Positions 9,001 to 54,300 of a stretch of 64,000 nucleotides of DNA are shown in pieces. Source of the DNA: Watersipora subatra (Eukaryota; Bryozoa; Gymnolaemata; Cheilostomatida; Watersiporidae); contig NC_088710.1 of the NCBI RefSeq assembly GCF_963576615.1, positions 496,001 through 560,000 on the forward strand, read 5' to 3'. The position numbers and the translations under genes are program-made. Each line of letters begins with the position of its first letter. Position 1 is the first letter of the stretch. The notes under the pieces were generated by a model that did no database searches, was not told where the DNA came from, and saw nothing but the letters and a program-made list of their open reading frames with translations.

Positions 9001-12000
9001 TGCATATGCTATTATTGCTACTATATGCTGCTATTTTGCATATGCTATTATTGCTACTATATGCTGCTATTTTGCATATGCTATTATTGCTACTATATGC
9101 TGCTATTTTGCATATGCTATTATTGCTACTATATGCTGCTATTTTGCATATGCTATTATTGCTACTATATGCTGCTATTTTTCATATGCTATTATTGCTA
9201 CTATATGCTGCTATTTTGCATATGCTATTATTGCTACTATATGCTGCTATTTTGGTAATATTTAAAAATGTTTGATGGAAGCATAACTGAAAATAAAAGC
9301 AGTAATAAATTTTATGGCTTTTCGACTTATAGCAATAATAGCAATATAATATTACTTGTAATAATAAACAGAAGTAAGTGATAAACTTATATCAATTAAC
9401 ATTAAGAAACAGTATATCCACAACTGTTATGACAGGACAGGATGTGGTTAGATGACGAATATTCGCCTTATTAGGCTTAATATGTTTCAGATTTTCAATG
9501 ATAACAGAGGATCCTCTACGTACTGTAAAGGTTCTTCTATGTACTGTAGAAGATCCTCTATGTACTGTAGAGGATCCTCTACGTACTGTAGAGGATCCTC
9601 TATGTACTGTAGATGATCCTCTATGTACTGTAAAGGATCCTCTATGTACTGTAGAGGATCCTATACGTACTGTAGAGGATCCTCTACGTACTGTAGCGGA
9701 TCCTCTATGTACTGTAGAGGATCCTCTATGTATTGTAGAGGATCCTCTATGTACTGTAGAGGATCCTCTATGTACTGTAGAGGATCCTCTATGTACTCTA
9801 AAGGATCCTCTATGTACTGTAGAGGATCCTCTATGTACTGTAGAGGATCCTCTACGTACTGTAGAGGATCCTCTATGTACTGTAGAGGATTCTCTATGTA
9901 CTGTAGAGGATCCTCTATGTACTGTAGAGGATATAGTGTGATAAAATACTAAAATATATTTATCGTGGAATGGGGTATGCGATGAATAAACTTGGAGGCA
10001 CCTTTGACGAACCAATGTTGGGGATGTGTGACTGACATGGTAATCACTCTATCAGTGACCCTCGCAAGACTTCAATAAAACAGTTTTAGCATGCATGTTT
10101 TGAATGGGTTTGTTATACAGCAAACCTATCCTATATCGTAGCCTAAAAACATCAAAGTATTTATCATGATCTCAACCAACCACTCTTTATTATGTATCAG
10201 CTTGCGTACGTTTATTTACCACTGATGAACCAAAAGCGAGTAGGTTACCGCGCACCTGTTGTGTACCCAACCAAGAAAAACCTAAAATAACTCTAAATCT
10301 GTGAGAATTATAACCTGACTGCCTTATGAGTACCTCCCTTACATGCCTCTATGTGTAAAGAATCTAGAAGAGCTCTTAAACCAGACTGAATTGTTACAAA
10401 AGCTTCATATGAAAACCATTTGTTAGTCATGCTGTCAGCATAGATTTGTAGTCGACTATGCTAATAGCTGACTAAGTGGTTATATCGACAACAGTTGGCA
10501 TTTGTTCTTGACCTACACTACTGCAATTGCACAAGCAGTACACCACCTCAAAATGCACTACTGCAGGTGTACAAGCGGTGAACCACCTCAAGATGCACTA
10601 CTGCAGGTGCACAAGCAGTAAACCACCTCAAGATGCACTACTGCAGGTGTACAAGCAGTAAACCACCTCAAAATGCACTACTGCAGGTGTACAAGCAGTA
10701 AACCACCTCAAAATGCACTACTGCAGATGTACAAGCAGTAAACTACCTCAAAATGCACTACTGCAATTGTACAAGCAGTAAACCACCTCAAAATGCACTA
10801 CTTCAGGTGTACAAGCAATAAACCACCTCAAGATGCACTACCGCAATTGTACAAGCAGTAAACCACCTCACAATGCACTACTGCAGGTGTACAAGCAGTA
10901 AACCACCTCAAGATGCACTACTGCAGGTGTACAAGCAGTAAACCACCTCAAAATGCACTACTGCAGGTGTACAAGCAGTAAACCACCTCAAAATGCACTA
11001 CTGCAGATGTACAAGCAGTAAACTACCTCAAAATGCACTACTGCAATTGTACAAGCAGTAAACCACCTCAAAATGCACTACTTCAGGTGTACAAGCAATA
11101 AACCACCTCAAGATGCACTACCGCAATTGTACAAGCAGTAAACCACCTCACAATGCACTACTGCAGGTGTACAAGCAGTAAACCACCTCAAGATGCACTA
11201 CTGCAGGTGTACAAGCAGTAAACCACCTCAAGATGCACTACTGCAGGTGTACAAGCAGTAAACCACCTCAAGATGCACTACTGCAGGTGTACAAGAAGTA
11301 AACCACCTCAAGATGCACTACTGCAGGTGTACAAGCAGTAAACTACCTCAAAATGCACTACTGCAATTGTACAAGCAGTACACCACCTCAAATGCACTAC
11401 TGCAAGTGTACAAGCGGTGAACCACCTCAAGATGCACTGCTGCAGGTGTACAAGCAGTAAACCACCTCAAGATGCACTACTGCAGGTGTACAAGCAGTAA
11501 ACCACCTCAAGGTGCACTACTGCAATTGTACAAGCAGTAAACTACCTCAAAATGCACTACTGCAATTGTACAAGCAGTAAAACACCTCAAAATGCACTAC
11601 TGCAGGTGTACAAGCGGTGAACCACCTCAAGATGCACTGCTGCAGGTGCACAAGCAGTAAACCACCTCAAGATGCACTACTGCAATTGTACAAACAGTAA
11701 ACTACCTCAAAATGCACTACTGCAATTGTACAAGCAGTAAACCACCTCAAAATGCACTACTGCAGGTGCACAAGCAGTAAACCACCTCAAGATGCACTAC
11801 TGCAGGTGTACAAGCAGTAAACCACCTGAAGATGCACTGCTGCATGCTTGTTGCAAGCAAAGCTGAAAAACGAGCATATAATGTAATTACAGAGCGAAAA
11901 TGAATTAGGTAGAAATACCAAAACTAACTGAGTGATTTAGGCAAGTACCACTAATAACTTTGAGGATGCTGTCAAGAGTTGCGTATAATACTGGATGAAG

Positions 12001-15000
12001 AGTTGTCTTACTCCGTGATTAGCAGAGTTGACTATATTGTTTTTACAGAGTAAAGCAAGAAATAACCTAGTGGTAGCAGAGTATAAGATAGTCAAAAAAT
12101 AAAACTACCATATGTAAACATTTTTTTCTGGGTGTGAACAGGGGCAAGTAGACTTGGAGTTAGCATGCTGGCACAATTAGTATTGCAAGTTGGTGAGTTA
12201 GCATCATGACTGTTTTCTTTAGTCTAGGGCTAGATATACCTTAGTCTGCCGCATCTAGGGCTAGATATACCGTAGTCTGCCGCCTTAATTCCGAGTCTTG
12301 TGGAATATTAGCAATGGAAATTTCAAAGATGGTACGTAGGCGACACATTTGAACCCAAGACAGAGGGATAGACCTGAACACTGCCATAGCTACACATAAA
12401 ATAAAGGTGCGAGGGAAAAGAGAGTATAAATTAAGACCAGGGGAGTAATAGCTGCAGAAGTGGTTAGAATATCTCTCAAAGCTGATAACAATAACAATCA
12501 GCAGACAATTGATTTTCTCCGAATAGCAGCACCATCTCCTACAGGCTCCGCTATGAACACTTAATAACTTTGTCAAGCATAGCGCTTGCAAGACTTGACC
12601 AGCAATGACAGGTGTAGGACCTCAACTGATCCCTTACAAAATATGTTCAAATGACGAAACTTACCCCCCCCCCTCCCCCTCCCTGGCACTTTGACCTAGA
12701 CCTTTTTAAACAAGCTACTTCTAAAACACTACAGTTATGGTTTACATAGAAAGTTCTAAGCTGGTGATGAATAGAGATCAGTGATCATAGGATACTTTAG
12801 CATGAAAGCTGCCGCGCATTAAAATAATAACTTTCTCAACAGATTCTTATAAATGGTGACAAATAATCAAAGAAAGTAATAGGTTGCAAACAGTTCGCGG
12901 CAATGAACTCATTTTCAGACGTAGAAGATGAAAGGGCGAACAAACAATGGGAGCAGATGGATAGATATTGAGCGAAGAGATAGAGATTGAGCGAAGAGAT
13001 AGAGACGGAGATTGGTTAGAGAAATAGAGACAGAGATTGAATGGGGAGACGGAGATGCAACAGAACGATAAAATGGGGATTAAACAGAAAGATAGAATAC
13101 TAGGCATTGAGAAATTATTAATTATCATCAAGCAGTCAGACAGAGCTGGCTTCAGCTAAATAGGTGTGGCTGTTTTCATAGACCATCTCACCACAAATTT
13201 ATGTACAGTGAGAAAAAAATGAGGGGTTAATAGGTTACTTAAACATTTTACATACACGCAAAATGAGAAACACATAATAGCTAATAATCTGAAGCAAAAC
13301 ATCGTAATCCATTCTGGAACTGGTATAGCTGAGCTCAACTGAAAACATCCTAGAACTGGTATAGCTGGTCTCAACCGAAAACATCCTAAAACTGGTATAG
13401 CTGGTCTCAACTAAAAACATCCTAGAACTGGTATAGCTGGTCTCAACTGAAAACACCCTAGACCTGGTATAGCTGGGCTCAACTGAAAACATCCTAGATC
13501 TGGTATAGCTGGACTCAACTGAAAACATCCTAGAACTGGTATAGCTGAGCTCAACTGAAAACACCATAGAACTGGTATAGCTGGACTCAACTGAAAACAT
13601 CCTAGAACTGGTATAGCTGAGCTCAACTGAAAACATCCTAGAACTGGTATAGCTGGACTCAACCGAAAACATTCTAGAACAGGTATAGCTGAGCTCAACG
13701 GAAAACATCCTAGAGCTGGTATAGCTGGTCTCAACCGAAAACATCCTAAAACTGGTATAGCTGGTCTCAACTAAAAACATCCTAGAACTGGTATAGCTGG
13801 TCTCAACTGAAAACATCCTAAAACTGGTATAGCTGGACTCAACTGAAAACATCCTAGAACTGGTATAGCTGGACTCAACTGAAAACATCCTAGAACTGGT
13901 ATAGCTGAGCTCAACTGAAAACATCCTAGAACTGGTATAGCTGGACTCAACCGAAAACATTCTAGAACAGGTATAGCTGAGCTCAACTGAAAACATCCTA
14001 GAACTGGTATAGCTGGACTCAACTGAAAACATTCTAGAACAGGTATAGCTGAGCTCAACTGAAAACATCCTAGAACTGGTATAGCTGAGCTCAACTGAAA
14101 ACACCATAGAGCTGGTATAGCTGGACTCAACCGAAAACACCATAGAACTGACAAATTACAGCTAGAGAGAATCATAAAACTCAATGAAACTAATTGTTTT
14201 ATAGCTGTTTATAAGACAAAACTGATCCCATCCTAATAATACTTGTACTTAGATCATTTTTGCACCATTATTTTATGTATTTCACTAAGTTTTCACCATT
14301 ATGTTAACAACCCTTCATACCTTGATCCTGATTTTAAACAATGAACATGATGTCATTTACTGGATTGAATGGACAGGAACTTACAACAAACATTCCTACC
14401 TTTCACAAGGATAATAGCGATAACCAGTGTACCCTTTATGCCCTCTATGACGCTGCCTCTTAATTATTACATAAGTTGAATATGTAAAGCAAAGCCGTTG
14501 AATGAGATAATAGAGCTCTGGGTAAACTGGATACATACAAACAGTGACTCAATACATAGCCTTGAAATACAAAGCGACAGATGCATGTTAAAATGCAGGA
14601 AGGCAAGCCCACTAGTAGTACACTTCTGAACCTATTAGTAATGACATATTTCAGCTGTAAAACTTGGAGGTAGAGAGCATTAAATTCTCAAAGTAATCAT
14701 CTATTTCTACAATGCATAAAATTTCAACTTATGCAGTGCTCATGTGAAGGGGTGCAATCAAAACTAAATTGATGTTGGTGATTATAGCATGGGATATTTC
14801 AAGAGTACACTAAGCTACAGTTTACTTTATTTAGAAAAGCAAATAAATTTATCCAGGAATGGATGTGTTCTTCACCAATGTTTTTTTCAATATGTACAGA
14901 GGCACCAAAGCTTGGTTAACCATTTGTTAGCTTTCAGAAGTAAAAGTTCATGCGGTTTTATTGAAGCGATTAACATGAGCCTCGCAGAGTCAGCGAGTAT

Positions 15001-21662: not shown

Positions 21663-23662
21663 AAACTGCCCACACAGGGCCCAAAGCTTTTTACAGCTCA
21701 GGCACGTAAGGCTGTGTGCAAACAACGAAAACTATACAATAAGTTTAAAAAAACACACTCTCCTGACTTGATGGCCGAATACAAAATTATGAGACGCGAA
21801 AATAAAAAGATGTTTCGCAAAATTGAGCAGGATTATTATAATCGAGTTTTGTACGAACCACTCCGGGCTGGCATAAGCAAACCTTTTTTCTCTTTTATGA
21901 GGCGCACTCAGGGTCGCAAGAACAGCCCCTCCGCCCTACTAGCTAATATGCAATCAGAGTCGGAGATGGTTAATAATTTTAACATGTTTTTTCAAAGTGT
22001 TTTCACAAAGGCAGATGAATTTTTTCCTGAATACGATTTACCGGATACCAGCACCAGTCCAATAATAGTCACTTGTGAGGGCGTGGAGAAAATGATCGTA
22101 GGTCTTGTAAAGGGCAAAGCCCCTGGGCCCGACGGCTTAAGAAAAGAGGACTTCATGGTTGACGTCAGCACAGTGTCAGCAATGCTCACACTGGTTTACC
22201 AATACTCTTTAAATACCGGAAGTTTACCTTCTGCATGGAAATTAGCCAATGTCACACCAGTTTATAAAAAAGGCGATAAGACTCTCGCCGGAAATTATCG
22301 CCCTGTCTCACTAACATCAATAGCGTGCAAGATGCTTGAACACATCATTTTGAGCTATATCAATAAGAGCCTAAATCTTTCCTCGCATCAGCACGGCTTT
22401 AGGCATGGACTGTCGTGTACCACTCAACTGGTCACTGTTGTCCATGATCTTATGGATGCAAATAATGAAAATCAGCAAATACACGCTGCAGTTCTTGACT
22501 TTTCGAAGGCCTTTGATAAGGTATCACATTCTCTGCTTATAGTTAAACTTTTAGGTGCTGGGGTCCATCATTCGATTGTTTATTGGATTCAAAATTTTTT
22601 AAGCAACCGATTTCAAAAAGTTATTATAAACGGTCATGCATCAGCACCCTTAAAAGTCCACTCTGGAGTGCCGCAGGGCTCCGTTTTGGGGCCCACACTC
22701 TTTTTAATATATATTGACAAGGTCGGATCAGTTTTAAAACACTCCACCATCAGACTGTTTGCTGATGACGCTCTTCTGTACAGTCGAATTGATAATCACC
22801 ATGATTGCATAAATTTTCAGTCTGACCTCACTGCCTTGGAAAATTGGGCCTCTGAGTCCAAAATGATTTTTAATGTAACAAAGTGTCAAATTGTAAATTT
22901 TAATTTCACGTCAGACTCTGGCGTCCCAGCTGAGTACAACCTTTATAATACCAATCTGGAAGTTGTGGATAGCTTTAAATATTTGGGCGTGATTATTACA
23001 AATACATTGAGCTGGGACCACCATATAACATCGATTTGTACCAAAGCATTACAGACCTTGGGAATGATAAAACGGGTTCTTTTTAATGCTCCTAATAAAG
23101 TAAAGAAAATCGCATATTTGACTTTATGTAGACCCGCCTTGGAGTACGCTTGTGAGGTCTGGGACCCTTTTTTAGTCAAACACATATCTCAAATTGAATT
23201 TATACAAAGAAGAGCCGTGAGATTTATATGTAATTTGAAAGGAGTTGCTAGCGTAACGGAAGCTCGAGAGAATATCCAGTTGGAAGTTTTAGAGATCAGA
23301 AGAAAACGAGCAAGACTCAACCTTTTAATAAACATTTTATCTAATAGCACACACTCAGCGCTAATTGAAAGTTTTAATTTTTTAATGTCCCAACCACACC
23401 AGTATGACACCAGATCATCTCGGTCTAACGCTCCAAAGGCAATCGCCTGCAACACAAACACATATTTTAACAGCTTCATTCCACGAACTTCTCGGGATAT
23501 TAGATTGGGAGATCATTAGAACAGGAAAGTTTTATTAATTGATGTTTTAAATTCACTTGTTCAAATAGATAAATTTTTATTCTTATACAATCTATGCAAA
23601 CGGTCTCCACTTCCTCCTTTTGAGGTCTCGAGACTCTTTTTAATCAGAATCAGAATCAGAAA
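21663..23662 (+). mobile_element. Non-LTR retrotransposon, 5'-truncated (CR1/Jockey-like)
   Basis: Keeps only the reverse transcriptase half and the 3' end; the endonuclease part is missing. The 3' end is a short tandem tail of TCAGAA units at 23643-23662 rather than poly(A), as seen in CR1-like clades. Confidence 0.88.
21714..23519 (+). CDS. Reverse transcriptase of a non-LTR retrotransposon
   Basis: About 600 uninterrupted residues. Conserved RT blocks in order: APGPDGL, YRPVSLTS, VLDFSKAFDKV (near residue 260), GVPQGSVLGP (near 318) and the catalytic RLFADDALLY (near 348). A C-terminal thumb-like region has ALEYACEVWDPF and IQRRAVRFI. The frame continues upstream to about 21663 and has no true ATG near its start, so this is the remains of a longer ORF2. 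The intact frame and both catalytic aspartates suggest a fairly recent insertion. Clade assignment within CR1/Jockey is uncertain. Confidence 0.92.
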   Translation: MCKQRKLYNKFKKTHSPDLMAEYKIMRRENKKMFRKIEQDYYNRVLYEPLRAGISKPFFSFMRRTQGRKNSPSALLANMQSESEMVNNFNMFFQSVFTKADEFFPEYDLPDTSTSPIIVTCEGVEKMIVGLVKGKAPGPDGLRKEDFMVDVSTVSAMLTLVYQYSLNTGSLPSAWKLANVTPVYKKGDKTLAGNYRPVSLTSIACKMLEHIILSYINKSLNLSSHQHGFRHGLSCTTQLVTVVHDLMDANNENQQIHAAVLDFSKAFDKVSHSLLIVKLLGAGVHHSIVYWIQNFLSNRFQKVIINGHASAPLKVHSGVPQGSVLGPTLFLIYIDKVGSVLKHSTIRLFADDALLYSRIDNHHDCINFQSDLTALENWASESKMIFNVTKCQIVNFNFTSDSGVPAEYNLYNTNLEVVDSFKYLGVIITNTLSWDHHITSICTKALQTLGMIKRVLFNAPNKVKKIAYLTLCRPALEYACEVWDPFLVKHISQIEFIQRRAVRFICNLKGVASVTEARENIQLEVLEIRRKRARLNLLINILSNSTHSALIESFNFLMSQPHQYDTRSSRSNAPKAIACNTNTYFNSFIPRTSRDIRLGDH

Positions 23663-26090: not shown

Positions 26091-29000
26091 ATGGCAGCTG
26101 CCATGGTATGTATATCTTATTTGGTTTTTACTTCTTTATCTAGCAAACTAATTGCATGAGCCAGTCTTAAATATATAAATTTTAAATATATTTCTTAAAA
26201 TGTTTCCACTTAAAGTTTTTATGGCAGAAGGTGAATGAGGTGTGACTTGCACAACTGTCACTAATAATAACTGAAAGATGATACATTTGTTCATTCAAGC
26301 CAATCTGTTTCCGTGTTATCAGTTCTAATCTGTTGGTCAGGTGGCTCGGCAGGGCAGAGCTGTAGTGCGCACGATAGCTGAAATGAGGTTCACTGTGAGA
26401 CAGATGAGTTCAAAGTCGGCGAATGAATATCATGAACCTGGAGATCATGGTAAGATTACAAGTTACGTCGCAGTCTCAATACATCGTGATTCGTTGAAGG
26501 TAGTGTCAGTAGACTGTGTTTGAATGAAGATAGATTCAGCATGCTATGAGTAAAAGTGTCTAGTGTCAACACATTGTGATTGGTCAAAGGTATTGTTAAC
26601 ACAACGAGATTGGTCAAAGGTGCTATCAACACATCGTGATTGGTCGAAGATACTATCAATGGAGTGTTATAGATCCAAGATAGTTCCAACATGTTGAAAT
26701 GAGCTATATCTTGTGTCAACACATTGTGATTGGTCAAAGGTGGTATCAATACATCATGATTGGTTGAATGTATTGTCCACACATAGTGATTGGTTAAAGT
26801 TAGTGTCAACTTTTGAATGGTCAGTAGTGCCCATTTCTCAAAGCTAATGTCAATTGTTTTTAGTTATTTAAAGGTTATGTCAGCTCAGTGTTTGGGGTTA
26901 AAGGTAAGCCAATGCATTGTGATTGAGAAATATTAAAGGTTTGGTGGTCAATAGCGGAATGTTTTGTGTTATCAGGTACTAAAAAGGTGTGGCCAGATAG
27001 CGCAGTCTCTTTTGATCCGTATGACCAGCTACGGTTTCCTCTGCCAGGAAACTCTGCTCCGGCCTTGTTCGCGACAGCCAGGCCGCCACTGCTGTCAATA
27101 TCTTCAGCGGATGCAGACGTGCTGCACGCAAGGTCTAGCTATCAAAACCAAGCAGAAGTGTTTGGCCAACATAGACTAAGAGAGGCCATGGTGGTCAGTT
27201 TATCACTGTGTACATCTTTCATCCTTCGTTCATTTCAGTCTGTGAGAGTTCAGTGGAACCCTGGGAGAAGTTTAGGGTCTTACCGATAATTCTACCTATT
27301 TCTGGTGTATTTAATTATATGTACTTTATACACCTACTCATTCTTTAATTATATGTACTTTATACACCTACTCATTCTTTAATTATATGTACTTTATACA
27401 CCCACTCATTCTTCAATTATATGTACTTTATACACCTACTCATTCTTTAATAATATGTACTTTATACACCCACTCATTCTTTAATTATATGTACTTTATA
27501 CACTCACTCATTCTTTAATAATATGTACTTTATACACCCACTCATTCTTTAATTATATGTACTTTATACACCCACTCATTCTTTAATTATATGTACTTTA
27601 TACACCCACTCATTCTTTAATTATATGTACTTTATACACCCACTCATTCTTTAATTATATGTACTTTATACACCCACTCATTCTTTAGTGATATGTACTT
27701 TATACACCCACTCATTCTTTAGTGATATGTGCATTATACACCCACTCATTCTTTAATTATATGTACTTTATACACCTACTCATTCTTTAATAATATGTAC
27801 TTTATACACCCACTCATTCTTTAATTATATGTACTTTATACACCCACTCATTCTTTAATTATATGTACTTTATACACCCACTCATTCTTTAATTGTATGT
27901 ACTTTATACACCCACTCATTCTTTAGTGATATGTGCTTTATACACCCACTCATTCTTTAATTATATGTACTTTATACACCTACTCATTCTTTAATAATAT
28001 GTACTTTATACACCCACTCATTCTTTAATAATATGTACTTTATACACCCACTCATTCTTTAATTATATGTACTTTATACACCCACTCATTCTTTAATTAT
28101 ATGTACTTTATACACCCACTCATTCTTTAGTGATATGTACTTTATACACCCACTCATTCTTTAGTGATATGTGCTTTATACACCCACTCATTCTTTAGTA
28201 ATATGTACTTTATACACCCACTCATTCTTTAATTATATGTACTTTATACACCCACTCATTCTTTAATTATATGTACTTTATACACCTACTCATTCTTTAA
28301 TAATATGTACTTTATACACCTACTCATTCTTTAATAATATGTACTTTATACACCTACTCATTCTTTAATAATATGTACTTTATACACCTACTCATTCTTT
28401 AATAATATGTACTTTATACACCCACTCATTCTTTAATAATATGTACTTTATACACCCACTCATTCTTTAATTATATGTACTTTATACACCCACTCATTCT
28501 TTAATTATATGTACTTTATACACCCACTCATTCTTTAATTATATGTACTTTATACACCCACTCATTCTTTAGTGATATGTACTTTATACACCCACTCATT
28601 CTTTAGTGATATGTACTTTATACACCCACTCATTCTTTAATTATATGTACTTTATACACCTACTCATTCTTTAATAATATGTACTTTATACACCTACTCA
28701 TTCTTTAATAATATGTACTTTATACACCCACTCATTCTTTAATAATATGTACTTTATACACCTACTCATTCTTTAATAATATGTACTTTATACACCCACT
28801 CATTCTTTAATTATATGTACTTTATACACCCACTCATTCTTTAATTATATGTACTTTATACACCTACTCATTCTTTAATTATATGTACTTTATACACCCA
28901 CTCATTCTTTAGTGATATGTACTTTATACACCCACTCATTCTTTAGTGATATGTACTTTATACACCCACTCATTCTTTAATTATATGTACTTTATACACC

Positions 29001-32000
29001 TACTCATTCTTTAATAATATGTACTTTATACACCTACTCATTCTTTAATAATATGTACTTTATACACCCACTCATTCTTTAATAATATGTACTTTATACA
29101 CCCACTCATTCTTTAATTATATGTACTTTATACACCCACTCATTCTTTAATTATATGTACTTTATACACCCACTCATTCTTTAGTGATATGTACTTTATA
29201 CACCCACTCATTCTTTAGTGATATGTGCTTTATACACCCACTCATTCTTTAGTAATATGTACTTTATACACCCACTCATTCTTTAATTATATGTACTTTA
29301 TACACCCACTCATTCTTTAATTATATGTACTTTATACACCTACTCATTCTTTAATAATATGTACTTTATACACCTACTCATTCTTTAATAATATGTACTT
29401 TATACACCTACTCATTCTTTAATAATATGTACTTTATACACCCACTCATTCTTTAATTATATGTACTTTATACACCTACTCATTCTTTAATTATATGTAC
29501 TTTATACACCCACTCATTCTTTAATAATATGTACTTTATACACCCACTCATTCTTTAATAATATGTACTTTATACACCCACTCATTCTTTAATAATATGT
29601 ACTTTATACACCCACTCATTCTTTAATAATATGTACTTTATACACCCACTCATTCTTTAATTATATGTACTTTATACACCCACTCATTCTTTAATTATAT
29701 GTACTTTATACACCCACTCATTCTTTAATTATATGTACTTTATACACCTACTCATTCTTTAATAATATGTACTTTATACACCTACTCATTCTTTAATAAT
29801 ATGTACTTTATACACCCACTCATTCTTTAATAATATGTACTTTATACACCCACTCATTCTTTAATTATATGTACTTTATACACCCACTCATTCTTTAATT
29901 ATATGTACTTTATACACCCACTCATTCTTTAGTGATATGTACTTTATACACCCACTCATTCTTTAGTGATATGTGCTTTATACACCCACTCATTCTTTAG
30001 TAATATGTACTTTATACACCCACTCATTCTTTAATTATATGTACTTTATACACCCACTCATTCTTTAATTATATGTACTTTATACACCTACTCATTCTTT
30101 AATAATATGTACTTTATACACCTACTCATTCTTTAATAATATGTACTTTATACACCTACTCATTCTTTAATAATATGTACTTTATACACCCACTCATTCT
30201 TTAATTATATGTACTTTATACACCCACTCATTCTTTAATTATATGTACTTTATACACCCACTCATTCTTTAATTATATGTACTTTATACACCTACTCATT
30301 CTTTAATAATATGTACTTTATACACCCACTCATTCTTTAATTATATGTACTTTATACACCCACTCATTCTTTAATTATATGTACTTTATACACCCACTCA
30401 TTCTTTAATTGTATGTACTTTATACACCCACTCATTCTTTAGTGATATGTGCTTTATACACCCACTCATTCTTTAATTATATGTACTTTATACACCTACT
30501 CATTCTTTAATAATATGTACTTTATACACCCACTCATTCTTTAATAATATGTACTTTATACACCCACTCATTCTTTAATTATATGTACTTTATACACCCA
30601 CTCATTCTTTAATTATATGTACTTTATACACCCACTCATTCTTTAGTGATATGTACTTTATACACCCACTCATTCTTTAGTGATATGTGCTTTATACACC
30701 CACTCATTCTTTAGTAATATGTACTTTATACACCCACTCATTCTTTAATTATATGTACTTTATACACCCACTCATTCTTTAATTATATGTACTTTATACA
30801 CCTACTCATTCTTTAATAATATGTACTTTATACACCTACTCATTCTTTAATAATATGTACTTTATACACCTACTCATTCTTTAATAATATGTACTTTATA
30901 CACCTACTCATTCTTTAATAATATGTACTTTATACACCCACTCATTCTTTAATAATATGTACTTTATACACCCACTCATTCTTTAATTATATGTACTTTA
31001 TACACCCACTCATTCTTTAATTATATGTACTTTATACACCCACTCATTCTTTAATTATATGTACTTTATACACCCACTCATTCTTTAGTGATATGTACTT
31101 TATACACCCACTCATTCTTTAGTGATATGTACTTTATACACCCACTCATTCTTTAATTATATGTACTTTATACACCTACTCATTCTTTAATAATATGTAC
31201 TTTATACACCTACTCATTCTTTAATAATATGTACTTTATACACCCACTCATTCTTTAATAATATGTACTTTATACACCTACTCATTCTTTAATAATATGT
31301 ACTTTATACACCCACTCATTCTTTAATTATATGTACTTTATACACCCACTCATTCTTTAATTATATGTACTTTATACACCTACTCATTCTTTAATTATAT
31401 GTACTTTATACACCCACTCATTCTTTAGTGATATGTACTTTATACACCCACTCATTCTTTAGTGATATGTACTTTATACACCCACTCATTCTTTAATTAT
31501 ATGTACTTTATACACCTACTCATTCTTTAATAATATGTACTTTATACACCTACTCATTCTTTAATAATATGTACTTTATACACCCACTCATTCTTTAATA
31601 ATATGTACTTTATACACCCACTCATTCTTTAATTATATGTACTTTATACACCCACTCATTCTTTAATTATATGTACTTTATACACCCACTCATTCTTTAG
31701 TGATATGTACTTTATACACCCACTCATTCTTTAGTGATATGTGCTTTATACACCCACTCATTCTTTAGTAATATGTACTTTATACACCCACTCATTCTTT
31801 AATTATATGTACTTTATACACCCACTCATTCTTTAATTATATGTACTTTATACACCTACTCATTCTTTAATAATATGTACTTTATACACCTACTCATTCT
31901 TTAATAATATGTACTTTATACACCTACTCATTCTTTAATAATATGTACTTTATACACCCACTCATTCTTTAATTATATGTACTTTATACACCTACTCATT

Positions 32001-35000
32001 CTTTAATTATATGTACTTTATACACCCACTCATTCTTTAATAATATGTACTTTATACACCCACTCATTCTTTAATAATATGTACTTTATACACCCACTCA
32101 TTCTTTAATAATATGTACTTTATACACCCACTCATTCTTTAATAATATGTACTTTATACACCCACTCATTCTTTAATTATATGTACTTTATACACCCACT
32201 CATTCTTTAATTATATGTACTTTATACACCCACTCATTCTTTAATTATATGTACTTTATACACCTACTCATTCTTTAATAATATGTACTTTATACACCTA
32301 CTCATTCTTTAATAATATGTACTTTATACACCCACTCATTCTTTAATAATATGTACTTTATACACCCACTCATTCTTTAATTATATGTACTTTATACACC
32401 CACTCATTCTTTAATTATATGTACTTTATACACCCACTCATTCTTTAGTGATATGTACTTTATACACCCACTCATTCTTTAGTGATATGTGCTTTATACA
32501 CCCACTCATTCTTTAGTAATATGTACTTTATACACCCACTCATTCTTTAATTATATGTACTTTATACACCCACTCATTCTTTAATTATATGTACTTTATA
32601 CACCTACTCATTCTTTAATAATATGTACTTTATACACCTACTCATTCTTTAATAATATGTACTTTATACACCTACTCATTCTTTAATAATATGTACTTTA
32701 TACACCCACTCATTCTTTAATTATATGTACTTTATACACCCACTCATTCTTTAATTATATGTACTTTATACACCCACTCATTCTTTAATTATATGTACTT
32801 TATACACCCACTCATTCTTTAGTGATATGTACTTTATACACCCACTCATTCTTTAGTGATATGTACTTTATACACCCACTCATTCTTTAATTATATGTAC
32901 TTTATACACCTACTCATTCTTTAATAATATGTACTTTATACACCTACTCATTCTTTAATAATATGTACTTTATACACCCACTCATTCTTTAATAATATGT
33001 ACTTTATACACCCACTCATTCTTTAATTATATGTACTTTATACACCCACTCATTCTTTAATTATATGTACTTTATACACCCACTCATTCTTTAGTGATAT
33101 GTACTTTATACACCCACTCATTCTTTAGTGATATGTACTTTATACACCCACTCATTCTTTAATTATATGTACTTTATACACCTACTCATTCTTTAATAAT
33201 ATGTACTTTATACACCTACTCATTCTTTAATAATATGTACTTTATACACCCACTCATTCTTTAATAATATGTACTTTATACACCCACTCATTCTTTAATT
33301 ATATGTACTTTATACACCCACTCATTCTTTAATTATATGTACTTTATACACCCACTCATTCTTTAATTATATGTACTTTATATACCCACTCATTCTTTAG
33401 TGATATGTACTTTATACACCCACTCATTCTTTAGTGATATGTACTTTATACACCCACTCATTCTTTAATTATATGTACTTTATACACCTACTCATTCTTT
33501 AATAATATGTACTTTATACACCTACTCATTCTTTAATAATATGTACTTTATACACCCACTCATTCTTTAATAATATGTACTTTATACACCTACTCATTCT
33601 TTAATAATATGTACTTTATACACCCACTCATTCTTTAATTATATGTACTTTATACACCCACTCATTCTTTAATTATATGTACTTTATACACCTACTCATT
33701 CTTTAATTATATGTACTTTATACACCCACTCATTCTTTAGTGATATGTACTTTATACACCCACTCATTCTTTAGTGATATGTACTTTATACACCCACTCA
33801 TTCTTTAATTATATGTACTTTATACACCTACTCATTCTTTAATAATATGTACTTTATACACCTACTCATTCTTTAATAATATGTACTTTATACACCCACT
33901 CATTCTTTAATAATATGTACTTTATACACCCACTCATTCTTTAATTATATGTACTTTATACACCCACTCATTCTTTAATTATATGTACTTTATACACCCA
34001 CTCATTCTTTAGTGATATGTACTTTATACACCCACTCATTCTTTAGTGATATGTGCTTTATACACCCACTCATTCTTTAGTAATATGTACTTTATACACC
34101 CACTCATTCTTTAATTATATGTACTTTATACACCCACTCATTCTTTAATTATATGTACTTTATACACCTACTCATTCTTTAATAATATGTACTTTATACA
34201 CCTACTCATTCTTTAATAATATGTACTTTATACACCTACTCATTCTTTAATAATATGTACTTTATACACCCACTCATTCTTTAATTATATGTACTTTATA
34301 CACCTACTCATTCTTTAATTATATGTACTTTATACACCCACTCATTCTTTAATAATATGTACTTTATACACCCACTCATTCTTTAATAATATGTACTTTA
34401 TACACCCACTCATTCTTTAATAATATGTACTTTATACACCCACTCATTCTTTAATAATATGTACTTTATACACCCACTCATTCTTTAATTATATGTACTT
34501 TGTATACCTACTCATTCTTTAATTATATGTACTTTATACACCTACTCATTCTTCAATCATATGTACTTTATACACCTACTCATTCTTTAATAATATGTAC
34601 TTTATACACCTACTCATTCTTTAGTGATATGTACTTTATACTCCTACTCATTCTTTAATTATATGTACTTTATACACCCACTCATTCTTTAGTGATATGT
34701 ACTTTATACACCCACTCATTCTTTAATAATATGTACTTTATACACCTACTCATTCTTTAGTGATATGTACTTTATACACCTACTCATTCTTTAATTATAT
34801 GTACTTTGTACACCCACTCATTCTTTAATAATATGTACTTTATACACCCACTCATTCTTTAGTGATATGTACTTTATACACCCACTCATTCTTTAATTAT
34901 ATGTACTTTGTACACCCACTCATTCTTTAATAATATGTACTTTATACACCCACTCATTCTTTAGTGATATGTACTTTATACACCCACTCATTCTTTAATA

Positions 35001-37904
35001 ATATGTACTTTATACACCCACTCATTCTTTAGTGATATGTACTTTATACACCCACTCATTCTTTAATTATATGTACTTTGTACACCCACTCATTCTTTAA
35101 TAATATGTACTTTATACACCCACTCATTCTTTAGTGATATGTACTTTATACACCCACTCATTCTTTAATTATATGTACTTTGTACACCCACTCATTCTTT
35201 AATAATATGTACTTTATACACCCACTCATTCTTTAGTGATATGTACTTTATACACCCACTCATTCTTTAATTATATGTACTTTGTACACCCACTCATTCT
35301 TTAGGGATATGTACTTTATACACCTACTCATTCTTTAATTATATGTACTTTATATACCTACTCATTCTTTAGGGATATGTACTTTATACACCTACTCATT
35401 CAACTACATACCAACTATAGATGCACTGTAGACGTAGACAGGCTCTACATATAAGTATTCATATGGTGTCATATACATAGCTATTACATTTGTTTCTTTT
35501 TTCTCTTGACTCGAATGTACATGTAAGTTGAGTGAGGCCTCGAACATGGACGAAGCTCTATAAAATCCTTACTGTAGTAGTAGCTGTATTTCTAAATACT
35601 GTGACCTTTTATGCACGCAATTCTCTTGGTTTTTTATACAGTCTGAAGCTTCCGGAACCGATTTAGCTGGAGACATAGAGCTCAAAGTACAAGACTGTCC
35701 AGTACTAATGAGAAAAGGTAGGCAATTCTCAAACAACATAACATGCACTCCTAGTTTATGTATAAAAATTAGTACAAAATAGTTTTTCACTTTTTTCGGC
35801 CTAAACTTGAAATAGAAACTAACAACTACTGTTAAAGGCGTGTGGCTAGGACAAAAGATATATCGATGTACCGTATATAAATCTCAATGTTTGTCTGTCC
35901 GTGTGTCCAGTTATAGAGATAAAGTTTTAGGAATAAAAAATCTGCTGCACACTTGATTTGAACTCAAAATCTCCAGTTTTGCAGACAGGCATTTATCCAA
36001 TACACTACATTGTTCGGCTAGCTTTATTTTGGAATAAATTATGCACATACTTATCACACCTGCCAATCTTTCATAGCTGCACACTTAATACTACAGCTGA
36101 TGTTATGTTTGGAGCCATACCAGAAGACAAATGTGTGCCCATACGTGAAGTAAAAAAGTGTGAACTCGCATGACCAACATGACTATTGCAGTCAGTACAG
36201 AGCTGTTTTAGGCACTGCAGTCGGTACAGTATGAATTACACAGAAATAAGCAAAACATCTTCATTTAAAAGTTAGAATAGTATACGCTGACTTGAAGTAA
36301 ATTTCTATGCCAAAGTTTTTTTGTTACCCGTGCAACGCCGGACATTCACCTAGTTGTACTATGCTAATTAATTGTTACAATAATTTTAGCCAAGCATTGT
36401 TTATCAGCAACATGACAAAGGCACACTCACAGAAGCAAAAGCACACTGAATAATAATTGCAAAATTGTGTACGCAATACAACACATGGTATAACCTGTAC
36501 GTATGTGAAATTTATACAAAAACCTTTTTGGCCCGGTGTAGTCGTGATAAGGATTTATTGGGCAACAGCCAGTCACAGCCTTGTTAAAACAGCAAAGCAA
36601 GTCATCTAAAATTCAGAGTTGTTCACTCTTATCAACAGGAAAGAAAAGACCATTCCCAAGTTAACAACACGCTTACTGTTTCAATCAATTTTATGCCAAA
36701 TACAGTGGGTCCTATTTGCTCACTTGCAGTTCAGCAGCTTTTCTGTCCTCTGCAGATTTCCAACTATTGTTCCCTGGTCACAATGTGATGTCAGGAGACT
36801 TTACCGTGGTGAGTTTGTGCCATAGAACTGTTCAGGACATGTCGGGTTGGTCAGAAGAGGTGGAGGAAGAGCGGGATACTCTCATAAGTCTTTATTCTGA
36901 GACAGCTAAGGAGCTTTGCTTCGTGCTTCGTAACAACGGATTCTGGGCAGACTTCATCGACCCCTGCTCTGGCAAACCAGTTAGTACATATCTCTGTAGC
37001 CTGTCTTGACAAACTGTTGTTTTGCGGAGTTGTCCCCCGTCAAGCGGGCGAACAACACAACAGCTTGTCACAAAACGTACTACACCTGATGCATCAGCTG
37101 CAATTATAGGGAGTTGTTCTCTTCCGTCTTGCGGCTTGGTTGCGATGTTATGTCGGTCGCTCCATTGGTAATCATAACGAATTTCGCGCAAAAATTTATG
37201 TGGAAAAAAATAAGACTACAACGTTTAACCAGCGACCAGTCTCTGCGGTAAACTTTAGTAGAACCTGAGAACTTAGGCAACAACAGCGACTAAACATGTC
37301 GTTATTTGTGCGCTCAGTCAGTTTTATTTCTATTTTTGTATCAGTCAGTTTTATTTGTAAACAACCAACAGTTTTTGGTTAAACGTTGTAATCTTATTTT
37401 TTTCTACATAATTTTTTTGCGCGAAATCAGTTATATTACCAATTGAGCGACCAACATAACATTGCAATCAAGCCGCATAGATGGAAGAGAACAACTCCCT
37501 ATAAGTGCAGCTGATGCATCAGGTGCAGAAAGTCTTGTGACAAGCTGTTGTGTTGCTCGCCCGCTCGACGAGGGACAACACCGCAAAAACAACAGTCTGT
37601 CAAGACAGGCTAATATCTCTGTTTAGTTTTGTTTACGCCCTGATCCGATAGCAATCCGTTCGTAATGCTCTTTACTGTCTACTTGCAGCATCTCGGACCT
37701 CACACGACTGATAGTATGTTCGAGATTGATGAACGTTATAGACATTTTGGATTTGAAATTGAGGACTTTGGTTGCTGCAAAGTAATAAAGCACCACAAAT
37801 GGGGCAGCAAGTCATTTGTTGGCTGCGTATTTACCAATGCACCTGTTGATTCATCTATTCTTCTCGAATTGACAGAGTTCACCGAATCTACACTGGACTG
37901 CTAA
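26091..37904 (+). CDS. MMADHC: Cobalamin trafficking protein CblD (MMADHC)
   Basis: Adaptor that works with MMACHC (CblC) to route vitamin B12 either to mitochondrial methylmalonyl-CoA mutase or to cytosolic methionine synthase. Coding exons: 26091-26105, 26341-26449, 26976-27190, 35642-35717, 36756-36979, 37689-37904; all phases agree and give 284 residues (human about 296). The start ATGGCAGCTGCCATG leads into an arginine-rich, nearly acid-free presequence (MAAAMVARQGRAVVRTIAEM). Diagnostic matches: KVWPDSAV, PLPGNSA, CPVLMRKDF, GWSEEVEEERDTL, FWADFIDPCSGKP, FEIDERYRHFGFEIEDFG and CCKVIKHHKWG, the region carrying the cobalt-binding cysteine known in the human protein. Exon 3 could end 2-3 bases differently (GTGGTC or GTCAGT donor). 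Intron 3 holds a giant minisatellite; intron 5 is nearly all transposon. No AATAAA was found in the kilobase after the stop. Confidence 0.95.
26550..26812. repeat. Degenerate repeat in MMADHC intron 2, about 28-30 bp
   Basis: Copies share ACATCGTGATTGGTCAAAGG. The units have drifted, with several insertions between them. The minus-strand frame over it has no protein character. Confidence 0.8.
27311..35402. repeat. Giant minisatellite, 34-bp period, 238 copies, in MMADHC intron 3
   Basis: The unit is TTAATTATATGTACTTTATA followed by CACCCACTCATTCT. Common variants are AATAAT, AGTGAT or AGTAAT for AATTAT, GTGC for GTAC, and CACCTACTC for CACCCACTC. From the first unit (27311) to the last (35369) the distance is exactly 237 x 34, so there is no net insertion or deletion. 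Rare GTGC markers at 27933, 28171, 29225 and 29973 recur at 30449, 30687, 31741 and 32489, each exactly 2,516 bp (74 units) later. The last kilobase carries more substitutions, as at the edge of a homogenising array. Confidence 0.98.
35863..36353. mobile_element. Possible Helitron-like non-autonomous element with tRNA-like part
   Basis: Begins TCGATGTACC after an A and ends ACCTAG before a T, preceded by CCCGTGCAACGCCGG, a decayed short hairpin. That is the Helitron end pattern. On the minus strand, TGTATTGGATAAATGCC (35988-36005) and GAGTTCAAATC (35954-35964) resemble pol III A and B boxes, so a tRNA-derived SINE is the alternative. It sits in MMADHC intron 4. Confidence 0.45.
36997..37612. 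mobile_element. MULE-like foldback element in MMADHC intron 5
   Basis: Two long inverted arms of about 235 bp (36997-37230 and 37377-37612) surround a 146-bp centre. The outermost bases are TAGCCTGTCTTGACA on both ends. A 9-bp target duplication ATATCTCTG flanks it at 36988-36996 and 37613-37621. Long arms with a 9-bp duplication are typical of Mutator-like elements. It has no coding capacity. Confidence 0.93.
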
Positions 37905-40243: not shown

Positions 40244-41002
40244 CTACGACCATGCACCTTTGTTTGCGGAACAGCTTTTTTGGAGCTGATACCATCTCTC
40301 ATTGATAATTTTCCATTTTCCTTTATCTTTTCTATCAGACATATTTGTCAAGTTTTGCACGTTGCCATCATCTGGAAGATGCCAACGTGCACCAGCAGTA
40401 ATAGGTCTAGGAGGCAACTGTGTAACTGGCTTAAAACCTTTTGTACACAATGCATTTAAAGCAGCTAATAGTTTCAGCTGCATCAACACATTTATGCCCA
40501 AAAAGTTTTTGCTCAATCCTTTTATAACATGAACCTGAGTGACCATAGATCTGTGTCTACTTTTCAACTGAACCTCCGCTTTACCTACTACCTTTAACTC
40601 AGAACCATCTACTGCAGTCAAAACAGTTGATGGCGCTTTTAACTTTAAGCCTAAGCTGTTGGCTGCTTTTTCGGTTACTGTTGAAATCTCCGCCCCTGTA
40701 TCGAGCGCAAAATCAACCTCCATATCATTTACCTTTAAAGTTCTGGTTATTTTATCATCTAGCCGTTTAGGACTAGAGGAAAACCTCACACTCCTACTAA
40801 GATGAGGGGAACGTGTGTAGTCCCTGTCTCTAGCTGAACCTCTGTCCATATTCCTGTCACTTTCGCTACTGCTACTCCTATCATAGCGATACCTGTTAAG
40901 ATCCTGTTTCTGAGAGTCTTCAGAACCATTCCTAGCACAGTCAATACTAGTATGGCCTTTCCTATTGCAAGTAAAGCACTTAGCATCAAGACAACTGCGA
41001 AG
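40244..41002 (-). CDS. LTR element zinc knuckle and aspartic protease
   Basis: A clean CX2CX4HX4C zinc knuckle (CFTCNRKGHTSIDC) lies at about 40938-40979. A preceding knuckle is broken by a TAG stop and has lost its histidine. About 60 codons later comes an aspartic protease with the active-site motif DFALDTGAEISTV and a later FLGINVL, as in retropepsins. The protease would process the gag polyprotein. The frame ends at 40244 where a reverse transcriptase would be expected to follow. Confidence 0.85.
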   Translation of the reverse strand, partial: LRSCLDAKCFTCNRKGHTSIDCARNGSEDSQKQDLNRYRYDRSSSSESDRNMDRGSARDRDYTRSPHLSRSVRFSSSPKRLDDKITRTLKVNDMEVDFALDTGAEISTVTEKAANSLGLKLKAPSTVLTAVDGSELKVVGKAEVQLKSRHRSMVTQVHVIKGLSKNFLGINVLMQLKLLAALNALCTKGFKPVTQLPPRPITAGARWHLPDDGNVQNLTNMSDRKDKGKWKIINERWYQLQKSCSANKGAWS

Positions 41003-44504: not shown

Positions 44505-45833
44505 AACAACATATAGGCCAGTATCATTAACTAGCGTATGTTGTAAGTTATTGGAACATATTATCCATTCCCACATAAGTGCCCACCTAGATAAATATGA
44601 TATCCTTACAGATGTGCAGCACGGATTTCGTGCTAAACGATCCTGTGAAACACAGCTTATTTGCACAATAGATGATCTAGCTAAGAACTTTGATAGAAAT
44701 TTGATTACAGATATAATAATACTGGACTTTTCTAAGGCGTTTGATTGTGTGAATCATCGGAAACTGGTTTATAAAATTCGAAATTATGGAATACACGATC
44801 AAGTCTTAAACTGGATAACATCATTTTTAGAGAATAGAACTCAAGTAGTCGAGGTAGAAAATGAACTGTCAAATATTGTGCCTGTAACTTCTGGTGTGCC
44901 GCAGGGTTCGGTGCTCGGACCATTGTTGTTTTTACTTTTTATTAATGACCTTCCTGATAAGGTAAATTCTCAGTGTAGACTTTTTGCAGATGATGCCCTG
45001 GTATATGCCACAAGAGATCAAGCCAATACATTGCAACAAGATATGCATTCACTTGAGGCTTGGGCGAATCTCTGGCAGATGAGTTTTAATCCAAAGAAAT
45101 GTTACCACCTTTCAGTGGGAAAATCCCATCTCATGTCAAATAAAGAGACTTCTTTTTTCTTATGTGCCCAAAAACTAGAAAGCGTCTTATCTAATCCGTA
45201 TCTCGGAGTAGAGCTCCAGAGTGACTTAAAATGGAATAAACACATTTGCAAAATTGAATCTAAAGGGAAGCGATTAATTGGGATGCTTAGAAGGGTACTC
45301 CGAGATGCGGATGCTCGAACTAGAAAGGCTGCATATACATCCTTGGTAAGACCAGGCCTTGAATATGGGTGCGTGGTTTGGGATCCACATCTTAAAAAAG
45401 ATATTTTATCATTAGAGCAGACACAAAACCTAGCACTGAGATTTATTTTTAAGAAAAAAGGAATTACTAGTTTCACTAATTTAAGAGAGAATACTTCTTT
45501 TGAATCGCTGGAGGAGAGACGATCCAGACTGCGTAAAAATATTTTTGGTAGAATCGTCGGAGGCGATATTGATATAAATGTGGGAGTTAAAGTCAGGGAA
45601 AGTGGTTCTGATAAAGAGGAAAGGCCTCCTGCATTGTCTACTCGATTTGGGAAGTATTACTTGCCCCACATTAATACTGATCAGTTAAGATATTCTTTTT
45701 GGCCTCGGACGGTGAGGGAAGTTCGTGCCGAGGTTGAATAGCTAGCTTGCTCTTTTAAGCTGAGTTCCGCTCTTTTGTTTTTTACCTCCATTGGAGGGTC
45801 TTTTGCGGAAAATTTTTATCTGATCTGATCTGA
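44505..45833 (+). mobile_element. Second non-LTR retrotransposon, 5'-truncated
   Basis: Starts abruptly inside the RT at the YRPVSLTS block. It ends in a short tail of TCTGA units at 45818-45833. It belongs to a different family from the element at 21663, although both end in simple repeats. Confidence 0.88.
44551..45741 (+). CDS. Reverse transcriptase C-terminal part (non-LTR)
   Basis: 396 residues without a stop. Motifs: HGFRAKRSCETQL, ILDFSKAFDCVNH, GVPQGSVLGPLLFLLFINDL, the catalytic RLFADDALVYA (near residue 143), then LEYGCVVWDPHL and the C-terminal tail. The frame is open a few codons upstream, to the truncation point. It lacks the endonuclease and the N-terminal fingers, so it cannot retrotranspose by itself. 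Confidence 0.92.
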   Translation: MEHIIHSHISAHLDKYDILTDVQHGFRAKRSCETQLICTIDDLAKNFDRNLITDIIILDFSKAFDCVNHRKLVYKIRNYGIHDQVLNWITSFLENRTQVVEVENELSNIVPVTSGVPQGSVLGPLLFLLFINDLPDKVNSQCRLFADDALVYATRDQANTLQQDMHSLEAWANLWQMSFNPKKCYHLSVGKSHLMSNKETSFFLCAQKLESVLSNPYLGVELQSDLKWNKHICKIESKGKRLIGMLRRVLRDADARTRKAAYTSLVRPGLEYGCVVWDPHLKKDILSLEQTQNLALRFIFKKKGITSFTNLRENTSFESLEERRSRLRKNIFGRIVGGDIDINVGVKVRESGSDKEERPPALSTRFGKYYLPHINTDQLRYSFWPRTVREVRAEVE

Positions 45834-51353: not shown

Positions 51354-54300
51354 ATGGCGTTGAGGAGATTCATTCCACTCTGCTGTCCAAAGTCCAACCG
51401 AACATTCTTCACGTCGGCCTGTAGAAGCTCTGACCTTGACTCTCCACCTATCCAAGAATTCCCGAGACTGAGCAAACATCAGGTATCTGCCATCCTCCAG
51501 GCCAATGAGGTCAGCGTAGAGATCAACCATGAGGCTGTCCTCAGGTTGGTTATCTTCTCTCTTGTCCCTTTTTTTCCATTTGCCTTTTCCTCTTTCCTTG
51601 TGCTTTTTTACTACCCTCTTCTGCTTTTTGCATCTTCATTTTTATTTAGTACTTTTAGTTATCTAGTAACATCTCTGTATGTATTCATGAAGGAATGTGA
51701 GGCGTCCATTTACTGCCTTTTAGACATCCTGTTGGGCATGATCGCAACTCAATATGCTCAACTCGGTGAGACTCGAATATCTCAAGTCAATGCTGTATCA
51801 GGTCTTTTTCACCTTCAGGTAGCTAATGTGTCTCCTTCATGGATCAGTTTCACTAGAGGTAAATTTGATGAGTTGGTACACTTAGGAGAGGGTTAAGGTA
51901 TGGCCACAGGTAATGATTTTTTGTTCATTCTGACCGAAATAACGAAATAAACGAAAAACACAGAATTATTTGGCCGAAACTCACAGCATTGTCTTAGTTG
52001 TGCATGCACACCGAAATCGTCAACAAAACGCTTTTAATTGGCTAAACAAATTATTAACGGGCACGATTCTAGCAGCTTTTGCAATTTATGTAGTCAGAGG
52101 CGCATAACGCGACTCGCAAAAAAATACTAACGCGATTTGCTGTAGTAATTATGATGCAACTGACTTGATTACGCTAAAGACTGCAACTCTTTCTACAATG
52201 GAATTTTTGCTGCTAAAAAGAATTTGTTATTATTAAAAAAGAAACGATCTGTAGCCATGGTGTTCAAACGATAAAAAATCGACAATTGCGCAATCTAGGC
52301 AGTTTCATCGTATGTACTATGTAGAATTGCCCTGGTACTTTTATTGTGTGTCGTAATACATGTCTTACACTACATAAATTGTAAGTAAATTTTATCTAAA
52401 TTTTTAGATGCTTTGTTTAGATGCTCGCTAATAATTTGTTTAGCCAATAGTTTCGTTTAGTGCACATCTCTGATTCTGTGAATTTTGGCCATATAATTCT
52501 GTTTTTCGTTCATTTCGGCCAGAGTGAACGGAAAAATGGTTACATGTGGCCGTACCTTTAGACAGCCGTTAGTGAGCGAATGGTTCTATCGGCTCTTTCT
52601 GCTGCGCAGTTTCCAAGGCTCAACTCTGTTTCCTCCTTCACAGGTTTGACAATAGTAGACTGGCTGCCAACAGCCCCATAGAGGACCGCCACTCCGAAGG
52701 CTACTGCAATGACACCGATGGATTCCTTTTTGGAATATTTGATGGACACGCCGGGGTGGCCAACGCTCAGGCGGTTAGCGAGCGTCTGTTCAGCTACATA
52801 GCTATAAATCTCCTCAACCCTGCGCAGCTTGAATCTTTCTGTAAGAAGATGAGCAAGGGGGAGGAGGCTAATCTCGTTAGGTTTCTCACACATGGCAACA
52901 CCTACTTCAACAAGGTTGGCAAAGGAGGAAAAATTAATGTTGGATGCTCCGGCATCCTGTGTCAATGTAATAACACAACCGTAATGCAGTATTAGTTTAT
53001 TTGGTAGGAGTTGTCTACTGTCTATAGATCATAGTATTAGTTTATTTAATAGGAGTTGTCTACTGTCTATAGATCACAGTATTAGTTTATTTGATAGTTG
53101 TCTACTGTCTATAGATCACAGTACTAGTTTATTTGGTAGGAGTTGTCTACTGTCTATAGATCATAGTATTATTTTATTTGGTAGAAGTTGTCTACTGTCT
53201 CTAGACCACAGTATTAGTTTATTTGATAGGAGTTGTCTACTGTCTATAGATCGCAGTATTAGTTTATTTGAAAGGAATTGTCTACTGTCTATAGATCACA
53301 GTATTAGTTTATTTGGTAGGAGTTGTCTACTGTCTATAGAGACGCTATTGTCAAGTATGGTATAGAGCTGCTGTCTACTATTGAGGAATGGGAAGAACAT
53401 TTCAACATGGAGCAAGCGCTATACTCTGCATTCGGCAGGCTTGATAAAGACATGGAGTATGAGGCCTTCCCTCATGGGCACCATAGACTGAATGCTGAGC
53501 TGCTCGCCAATGCTTTGTCCGGTACGCGACGATTCCTATTCTTAACTAATAGCGGCAACACTGACCCTCAAATGATCAATAAATCCAATTACTTGGGTTT
53601 GCCCCTCTGCACTAAATGTTTTATTGATGACAACTTCATTTTCATTTAAAAATGTTCTACCTTATCTTGTACTTGTGGATTTATCTTCCTTGGGTCAAAG
53701 TGGAAACAACTACTAATCTTTTACTTGCACATTGACCAAGGGAAGCGCTGTCAATGTCAAAAGCTTAGAATTTGAACTAAATGTATTGTACTAGAAAAAA
53801 GAAAGGGTACTGCTGGTTGTTGAAAAAGTAGTTGTCAGCAGGAATTGACAGAGTATAGTGTAAATGAGAGTTGTTTGAGATGATATAAAATAAATTTGTG
53901 GGAGCATCATCATCATCTGGAAACAAAGGGGCTGCCAAGTCCATTTCATTTACATCACCTACAATATCTACTAAAAAATTCTCCGAATCGGATGATTTGT
54001 TGTTATTAATTTGAGTAGCGTGTTGTTGAACATTAGCATTTGATGTTGATGGTTGCTGTGAGGACCTTCTATTTATCCTCTTATTGAGCTGTAATAATTG
54101 AGAGACACGTAGACGGCCACTGCGTCGGCGACGACGTGTTGTTCTGGGAAGTTGTATGTCCATGGTAGTTGTCAAGTTGTTTTGAAATTAAATTCAAAAA
54201 GTAATTTATGCAAAACAAAAGGTTGTATAAAAATCATACCTAATCTACTACTATCTCAAACCTATGTTTTACAACATTAAAATAAATATTAATTAGCGCT

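Follow-up and report, generated by a model that had tools for sequence, protein, structure and literature searches.

A single-locus 34-bp minisatellite with an exact 74-unit duplication in an MMADHC intron of the bryozoan Watersipora subatra

How 238 consecutive copies of a 34-bp unit came to stand in unbroken register within one intron, with a block of 2.5 kb present twice over without a single difference, and how far such an array departs from what is usual in its own genome, are the questions raised by this locus. The window, by which we mean the whole 64,000-nucleotide stretch of DNA that was analysed, corresponds to C3:496001-560000 in assembly tzWatSuba1.1 of the bryozoan Watersipora subatra, which has a genome of 783.7 Mb (GCA_963576615.1; PMC12902671). 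Coordinates are those of the window unless a chromosome is named, and the principal features are collected in Table 1. The TRF program reports the array as 238.0 copies at period 34, with 96% matches and 0% indels, and cutting it from its first base yields 238 units of 34 bp, or 8,092 bp in all. The preliminary description of this DNA, which had counted 238 units of exactly 34 bp with no net indel, is confirmed by both procedures; the limits that it gave, 27311-35402, denote the same array but lie one base too late.

Table 1. Window coordinates of the minisatellite array, its internal blocks and the MMADHC exons
Feature	Position	Strand	Basis and remarks
MMADHC exon upstream of the array	26976..27193	+	Splice sites by eye and homology; donor possible at 27191, 27194 or 27242, each giving phase 0
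Minisatellite array (238 units of 34 bp; consensus TTTAATTATATGTACTTTATACACCCACTCATTC)	27310..35401	+	TRF; unit cutting; genome match count
First copy of the 74-unit block (units 14-87)	27752..30267	+	Unit-string comparison
Second copy of the 74-unit block (units 88-161), identical to the first	30268..32783	+	Unit-string comparison
Older partial copy (units 174-211), 38 units	33192..34483	+	Differs at one position from units 106-143 and likewise from units 32-69
Right edge (units 213-238)	34518..35401	+	Unit typing; 11 types in 26 units, 6 rare-type units, 3-unit H-B-E repeat within units 221-235
MMADHC exon downstream of the array	35642..35717	+	Splice sites by eye and homology
MMADHC exon	36756..36979	+	PF10229; the Pfam match begins at 36719, 37 bases upstream, within the presumed intron
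Terminal MMADHC exon, containing the stop codon	37689..37903	+	PF10229

The units fall into 19 types, lettered A to S by abundance with the rare types tied, and 213 of the 238 belong to only six of them (59, 54, 31, 30, 30 and 9 units); 12 of the 34 positions of the unit are variable. The + strand is poor in G, with a GC skew of about -0.69 and a GC content of about 27% in three 2-kb windows inside the array. When the genome was searched with a 23-bp part of the unit, 237 matches with up to two mismatches were found, all on one strand, and as the array alone accounts for 237, a second locus was not found at this tolerance. The consensus unit contains TAA and its length of 34 shifts the frame from one unit to the next, which places stops in each + frame; with these stops, and with its place inside an intron of the spliced gene model described below, the array reads as non-coding.

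The host gene is MMADHC. Matches to the MMADHC family PF10229 occur in the window at 36719-36979 and 37689-37871, and these were the only two found genome-wide in the profile search. The two exons that flank the array matched no Pfam family by themselves at E<=1, and against PDB the short one gave no match at E<=10 and the other one spurious match (E 1.3); they count here only as parts of the spliced model. That model, with both flanking exons included, aligns with residues 54 to 293 of the CblD chain PDB 9mrs_D (E 1.7e-51), which we take to be the human protein, and with positions 31 to 271 of PF10229 (E 1.2e-66). The location in an MMADHC intron that had been proposed from the letters alone is thereby supported, as is the claim that the array forms almost all of that intron, which runs from 27191, 27194 or 27242 to 35641 (8,400-8,451 bp) and of which the array makes up 95.8-96.3%. 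In the last MMADHC intron (36980-37688) there is an apparent long imperfect inverted repeat, seen by eye at about 37013-37200 versus 37390-37610, which is perhaps a MITE-like element.

The array would presumably be carried in the MMADHC transcript and then be lost by splicing. Its sense strand holds the acceptor-like sequence CATTCTTTAG 51 times, as might be expected if the array were under selection, for example as an MMADHC enhancer or a splicing element, but a scan of the whole array found neither a GTRAGT donor nor an AGGT ratchet site, and many other arrays, with units unlike its own, occur both in the rest of the window and in the genome stretches that were sampled; we therefore consider a selected function most improbable. 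With both of these motifs lacking, exon formation inside the array looks unlikely. Recursive splicing through the array was also considered and was rejected, there being no AGGT in it.

The perfect register had been called unusual for an intronic minisatellite, and this part of the preliminary description did not survive comparison with other arrays of the genome. Among 33 arrays in the window and 48 fetched stretches with 85% match or more, 7 copies or more and a period of 10-100, 27, including that in the MMADHC intron, show 0% indels by TRF (a rounded figure). The array has at least 14 point-mutation events, a lower bound since each extra allele at a position was counted once, and given these, an array free of indels would arise with a probability of 0.03 if the substitution:indel ratio is taken as 4, 0.17 if 8 and 0.39 if 15. 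The register is thus ordinary for W. subatra, however striking it looks when taken alone, and a conspicuous array of this kind needs to be judged against its own genome.

The internal order of the variant units is another matter. Units 14-87 are identical to units 88-161 in all 74 positions, forming a tandem block of 2,516 bp, and when the array is shifted by this length 2,559 bp match without a mismatch (27734-30292 versus 30250-32808). The motif GTGC occurs in units 13, 19, 26, 57, 79, 93, 100, 131, 153 and 199, of which eight pair at a distance of 74 units (19-93, 26-100, 57-131 and 79-153) while 13 and 199 are unpaired. These are the four matched pairs from which a duplication of a 2.5-kb block as a whole had been deduced, and both the pairs and the duplication hold. 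A further 38-unit stretch, units 174-211, differs from units 106-143 and from units 32-69 by one mismatch in 1,292 bp, although it lies at a shift of 68 units from the second block copy and of 142, not 148, from the first. Since there are only 2.02 copies at 74 units and the next copy is found at 68 or 142, the array is not periodic at 74, and the term higher-order period, applied earlier to the 2,516-bp spacing, is too strong even though the duplication itself is confirmed. The structure is that of one 74-unit duplication, recent to judge from its identity, and an older 38-unit partial copy, and not that of a regular higher-order period.

Chance arrangement of the same units does not approach this result: the longest exact unit-block repeat was 13 units in 500 doublet-preserving shuffles and 10 units in 1,000 simple shuffles. 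(A first-order Markov null was dropped when it fell into a two-type loop, and the shuffles were used instead.) Shorter repeats are present as well, with exact tandem duplications of 2, 3, 5 and 8 units in addition to that of 74, and with the 14-unit string of types DCBBAAEFGADCCB starting at units 50, 72, 124, 146 and 192. Unit sites 7 and 26 occur in all four gamete combinations (68, 33, 61 and 31 units), a pattern that either recurrent mutation or exchange within units could produce. Among the 25 indel-free arrays examined for such structure, the 74-unit block is the longest block repeat, and eight arrays, again including this one, have a block repeat that was reached by no more than 5% of 200 simple shuffles; as the remaining 17 have no significant block repeat, block duplication is not demonstrated as a general process.

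Two other routes to such an order have to be weighed. If replication slippage alone, by one or a few units per step, had built the array, runs such as AAAA and BBBB and the tandem duplications of 2-8 units would be its natural products, but for the 74-unit step it is already contradicted by 74 variant units repeated in order with no difference in 2,559 bp, where doublet-preserving shuffles reach 13 units at most, and as a complete account we give it hardly any weight. The earlier verdict of exchange and not slippage is nevertheless overstated for the array, in which exact duplications of 2, 3, 5 and 8 units are found too, so small growth steps also occurred, by slippage or otherwise. Rolling-circle amplification, or re-insertion of an extrachromosomal circle, is expected to leave precisely an exact whole-unit tandem copy, and could have made the block copies in this way; against it stand the number of copies, which is only 2.02, the different spacing (68 units) of the older block, and the failure of the unit to occur elsewhere in the genome at up to two mismatches in 23 bp. 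An origin from a circle appears very unlikely to us.

An exact duplicate might also be a product of assembly, if a false duplication, a haplotype switch or the collapse of a longer exact repeat had created or altered the 74-unit block copy or the number of units in all. The preliminary description had warned of this, justifiably, given that the mean HiFi read is 5.8 kb by the tabulated figures (5.33 million reads totalling 30.93 Gb) or 6.0 kb by the text (2.20 million totalling 13.30 Gb), in both cases shorter than the 8.09-kb array (PMC12902671), and for this reason the total copy number may be wrong. The reported k-mer completeness of 69.65% for the primary and 61.25% for the alternate assembly, beside a further figure of 98.05% (PMC12902671), implies high heterozygosity, which again favours an artefact, and from these three values we derive a heterozygosity near 2.4%. 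At this level some 61 differences would be expected between two average alleles over 2,559 bp, whereas the block copies show none (upper 95% limit about 0.12%). A haplotype switch, which should have left about that number of differences, is disfavoured by this contrast, and the duplication must be either very young or kept identical by conversion. If contigs built by hifiasm are strings of overlapping reads, the junction between units 87 and 88, which is absent from a single-copy version, must have been supplied by some read. At the mean lengths given, many reads should also exceed the 2.56-kb exact repeat, the older block copy has a mutation of its own, and the primary assembly has a reported QV of 63.2 (PMC12902671). 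On balance we think an artefact unlikely, though it deserves to be kept in mind; the alternate haplotype has been deposited as GCA_963576605.1 (PMC12902671).

The reading that we prefer, and consider probable, is that of a single-locus, non-coding minisatellite which has grown within the MMADHC intron by homology-dependent tandem duplication of blocks, is neutral, and is spliced out. Homology between units would lead to misaligned exchange or repair synthesis, by which blocks of anything from 1 to 74 units would be duplicated in tandem; candidate pathways are unequal exchange, between sister chromatids or homologues, and template switching during break repair. The array is read from one assembled allele, from which we infer exchange, and on one allele crossing over, break-induced copying and conversion are inseparable. 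The latest large event would be that of 74 units, young enough for it to be expected still to be polymorphic, although gene conversion between the block copies could have kept an older duplication identical. Retention of the 34-bp unit length would follow from the preservation of register by homologous exchange together with the small number of independent mutations accumulated. Homogenising exchange with quiet array edges is a known model, and the last 26 units are the most divergent, averaging 1.81 differences from the consensus where the three remaining segments average 1.00, 1.11 and 1.20, and they contain 6 of the 13 units whose type occurs only once or twice, as expected if exchange homogenises the interior.

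On chromosome 3, where the array lies, a telomere-like end is about 0.52 Mb away. Among the 22 ends of chromosomes C1-C11, inspected over 300-400 bases each, 11 carry a telomere-like repeat, 10 do not and one consists of N; the repeat is (CCCCAAA)n at the left ends of C1, C3, C4 and C8 and (TTTGGGG)n at the right ends of C3, C4 and C7-C11, never in the reverse orientation. The genome has no match to (TTAGGG)5 and a single one to (TTAGGG)3, while a 32-base CCCCAAA pattern matches 1,181 times on the forward and 3,257 times on the reverse strand, the first 100 of these matches, which are those listed, all lying on C1. TTTGGGG is thus a probable non-canonical telomere repeat in this bryozoan, and its presence at both ends of C3 would place the array about 0.52 Mb from a probable telomere. 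The main text of the genome note (PMC12902671) contains no word beginning with 'telomer', and a literature search for an AAACCCC telomeric repeat found ciliate papers.

Tandem arrays are abundant around the locus: TRF reports 41 rows in the window, some overlapping, and at the loosest setting arrays account for 26.5% of its length. When 38 consensus units, drawn from the window and from 47 of the fetched stretches (C50:10001-20000 left out), were compared with one another by BLAST, no two arrays shared a unit family at E 1e-3. Array cover was compared between 10 interior stretches at least 5 Mb from an end (100 kb in total) and 34 that lie no farther than about 1 Mb from one (90 kb), leaving out the window, L026 on C50, and L017-L019 in the first 2 Mb of C3. 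Under strict criteria (at least 85% match, at least 7 copies, period 10-100) arrays cover 935 of 100,000 bp in the interior (0.9%) and 18,668 of 90,000 bp near ends (20.7%), or 8,668 of 80,000 bp (10.8%) when the all-satellite stretch L014 is removed, and with or without L014 a difference of this size was reached in none of 5,000 permutations of the stretches. Under loose criteria (at least 50% match, at least 3 copies) the enrichment has p = 0.018, and 0.13 without L014; only 10 of the 34 stretches near ends contain any strict array at all, against 2 of the 10 inside. The places were picked by hand and the stretches were of 1, 2 and 10 kb near ends but of 10 kb inside, which weakens the permutation, and we regard the data as suggestive of an enrichment of young minisatellites towards chromosome ends, a gradient that is likely but not established. 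Stretches L014 (C2:1000001-1010000) and L026 (C50:10001-20000) both consist over their whole 10 kb of tandem satellite, with units of 83 bp and 98 bp respectively.

Several other features of the window may be noted. A probable second intron of this sort, at 52967-53339 with splice sites placed by eye, would be almost all minisatellite (45-bp units, 52987-53340) and would lie between presumed exons of a PP2C-type phosphatase (PF00481 match at 56618-57130); the open frame at 52576-52992 has no Pfam match over the cut-off. The presumed acceptor, CTATAG, stands at the end of this array, most of whose units contain the same string. Five further arrays (4817-5017, 8926-9254, 9506-9932, 13310-14150 and 59389-59813) are each crossed by three or four open frames, which would encode repetitive hypothetical peptides. 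Long open frames at 21663-23519 and 44506-45741 contain an RVT_1 reverse transcriptase domain (E 9.5e-38 and 3.1e-35) and by reading appear LINE-like, and a frame on the minus strand at 40247-41002 is part of a retroelement: it matches a gag-type aspartyl protease (PF13975, E 5.2e-09) and, below the cut-off, a zinc knuckle.

Minisatellites, or VNTRs, consist of head-to-tail units of about 10-100 bp in arrays of 0.1 to tens of kb. With 238 head-to-tail units of 34 bp at a single locus, not dispersed and non-coding by the model, the array belongs with the minisatellites on all defining features but length polymorphism of alleles, one allele being known. Alpha-satellite-type DNA is built of higher-order repeats, blocks of variant units repeated in order; the Watersipora array likewise has variant-unit blocks in repeated order, but it has no regular period over many copies and is one locus of 8 kb, not a set of multi-copy arrays, with 2.02 copies and irregular spacings of 74 and 68. 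A closer likeness is to the TRACT repeat, a 30-bp VNTR in an intron of human CACNA1C that extends over 3-30+ kb, has sequence variants within its units, and has been length-typed in populations and linked to expression, as described in a preprint (PMC13131567). The Watersipora array is of the same intronic VNTR kind, with kilobases of variant units of about 30 bp in an intron of its host, although the animal, the unit and the gene are different and it is known from one allele. It also resembles human D1S80, CEB1, CEB25 and HRAS1 in being a single-locus minisatellite near a chromosome end. Mutations at the subtelomeric D1S80 fit a one-step change in 6 of 7 instances (PMC3356730), in contrast to the 74-unit step seen here, and CEB1, CEB25 and HRAS1 are GC-rich (PMC3486850), unlike the present array with its low GC content. 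Literature searches on bryozoan minisatellites found no earlier description of such a setting, and those on sponges and subtelomeres yielded nothing on the locus.

The array is therefore a single-locus minisatellite of a known kind, one that seems to be common in the W. subatra genome; its most interesting parts are set out here, of which the exact 2.5-kb duplication and the location near a chromosome end are the ones meant. A broader proposal, which we put forward tentatively and hold to be possible rather than probable, is that the distal megabases of Watersipora chromosomes may be a zone in which unrelated minisatellites continually arise and are enlarged by block duplication, rapidly enough that whole introns (those of MMADHC and the presumed PP2C-type gene) are turned into arrays, the chromosome ends carry the non-canonical (TTTGGGG)n, and subtelomeric recombination would be the engine. 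To our knowledge, concentration of minisatellites near chromosome ends, and the filling of introns by them, have been described mainly in vertebrates, and the occurrence of such arrays here, if true, would extend this feature to bryozoans. Provided that the identity of the 74-unit copies does reflect a recent duplication, the locus would be a ready marker for large-block minisatellite mutation in a colonial invertebrate.
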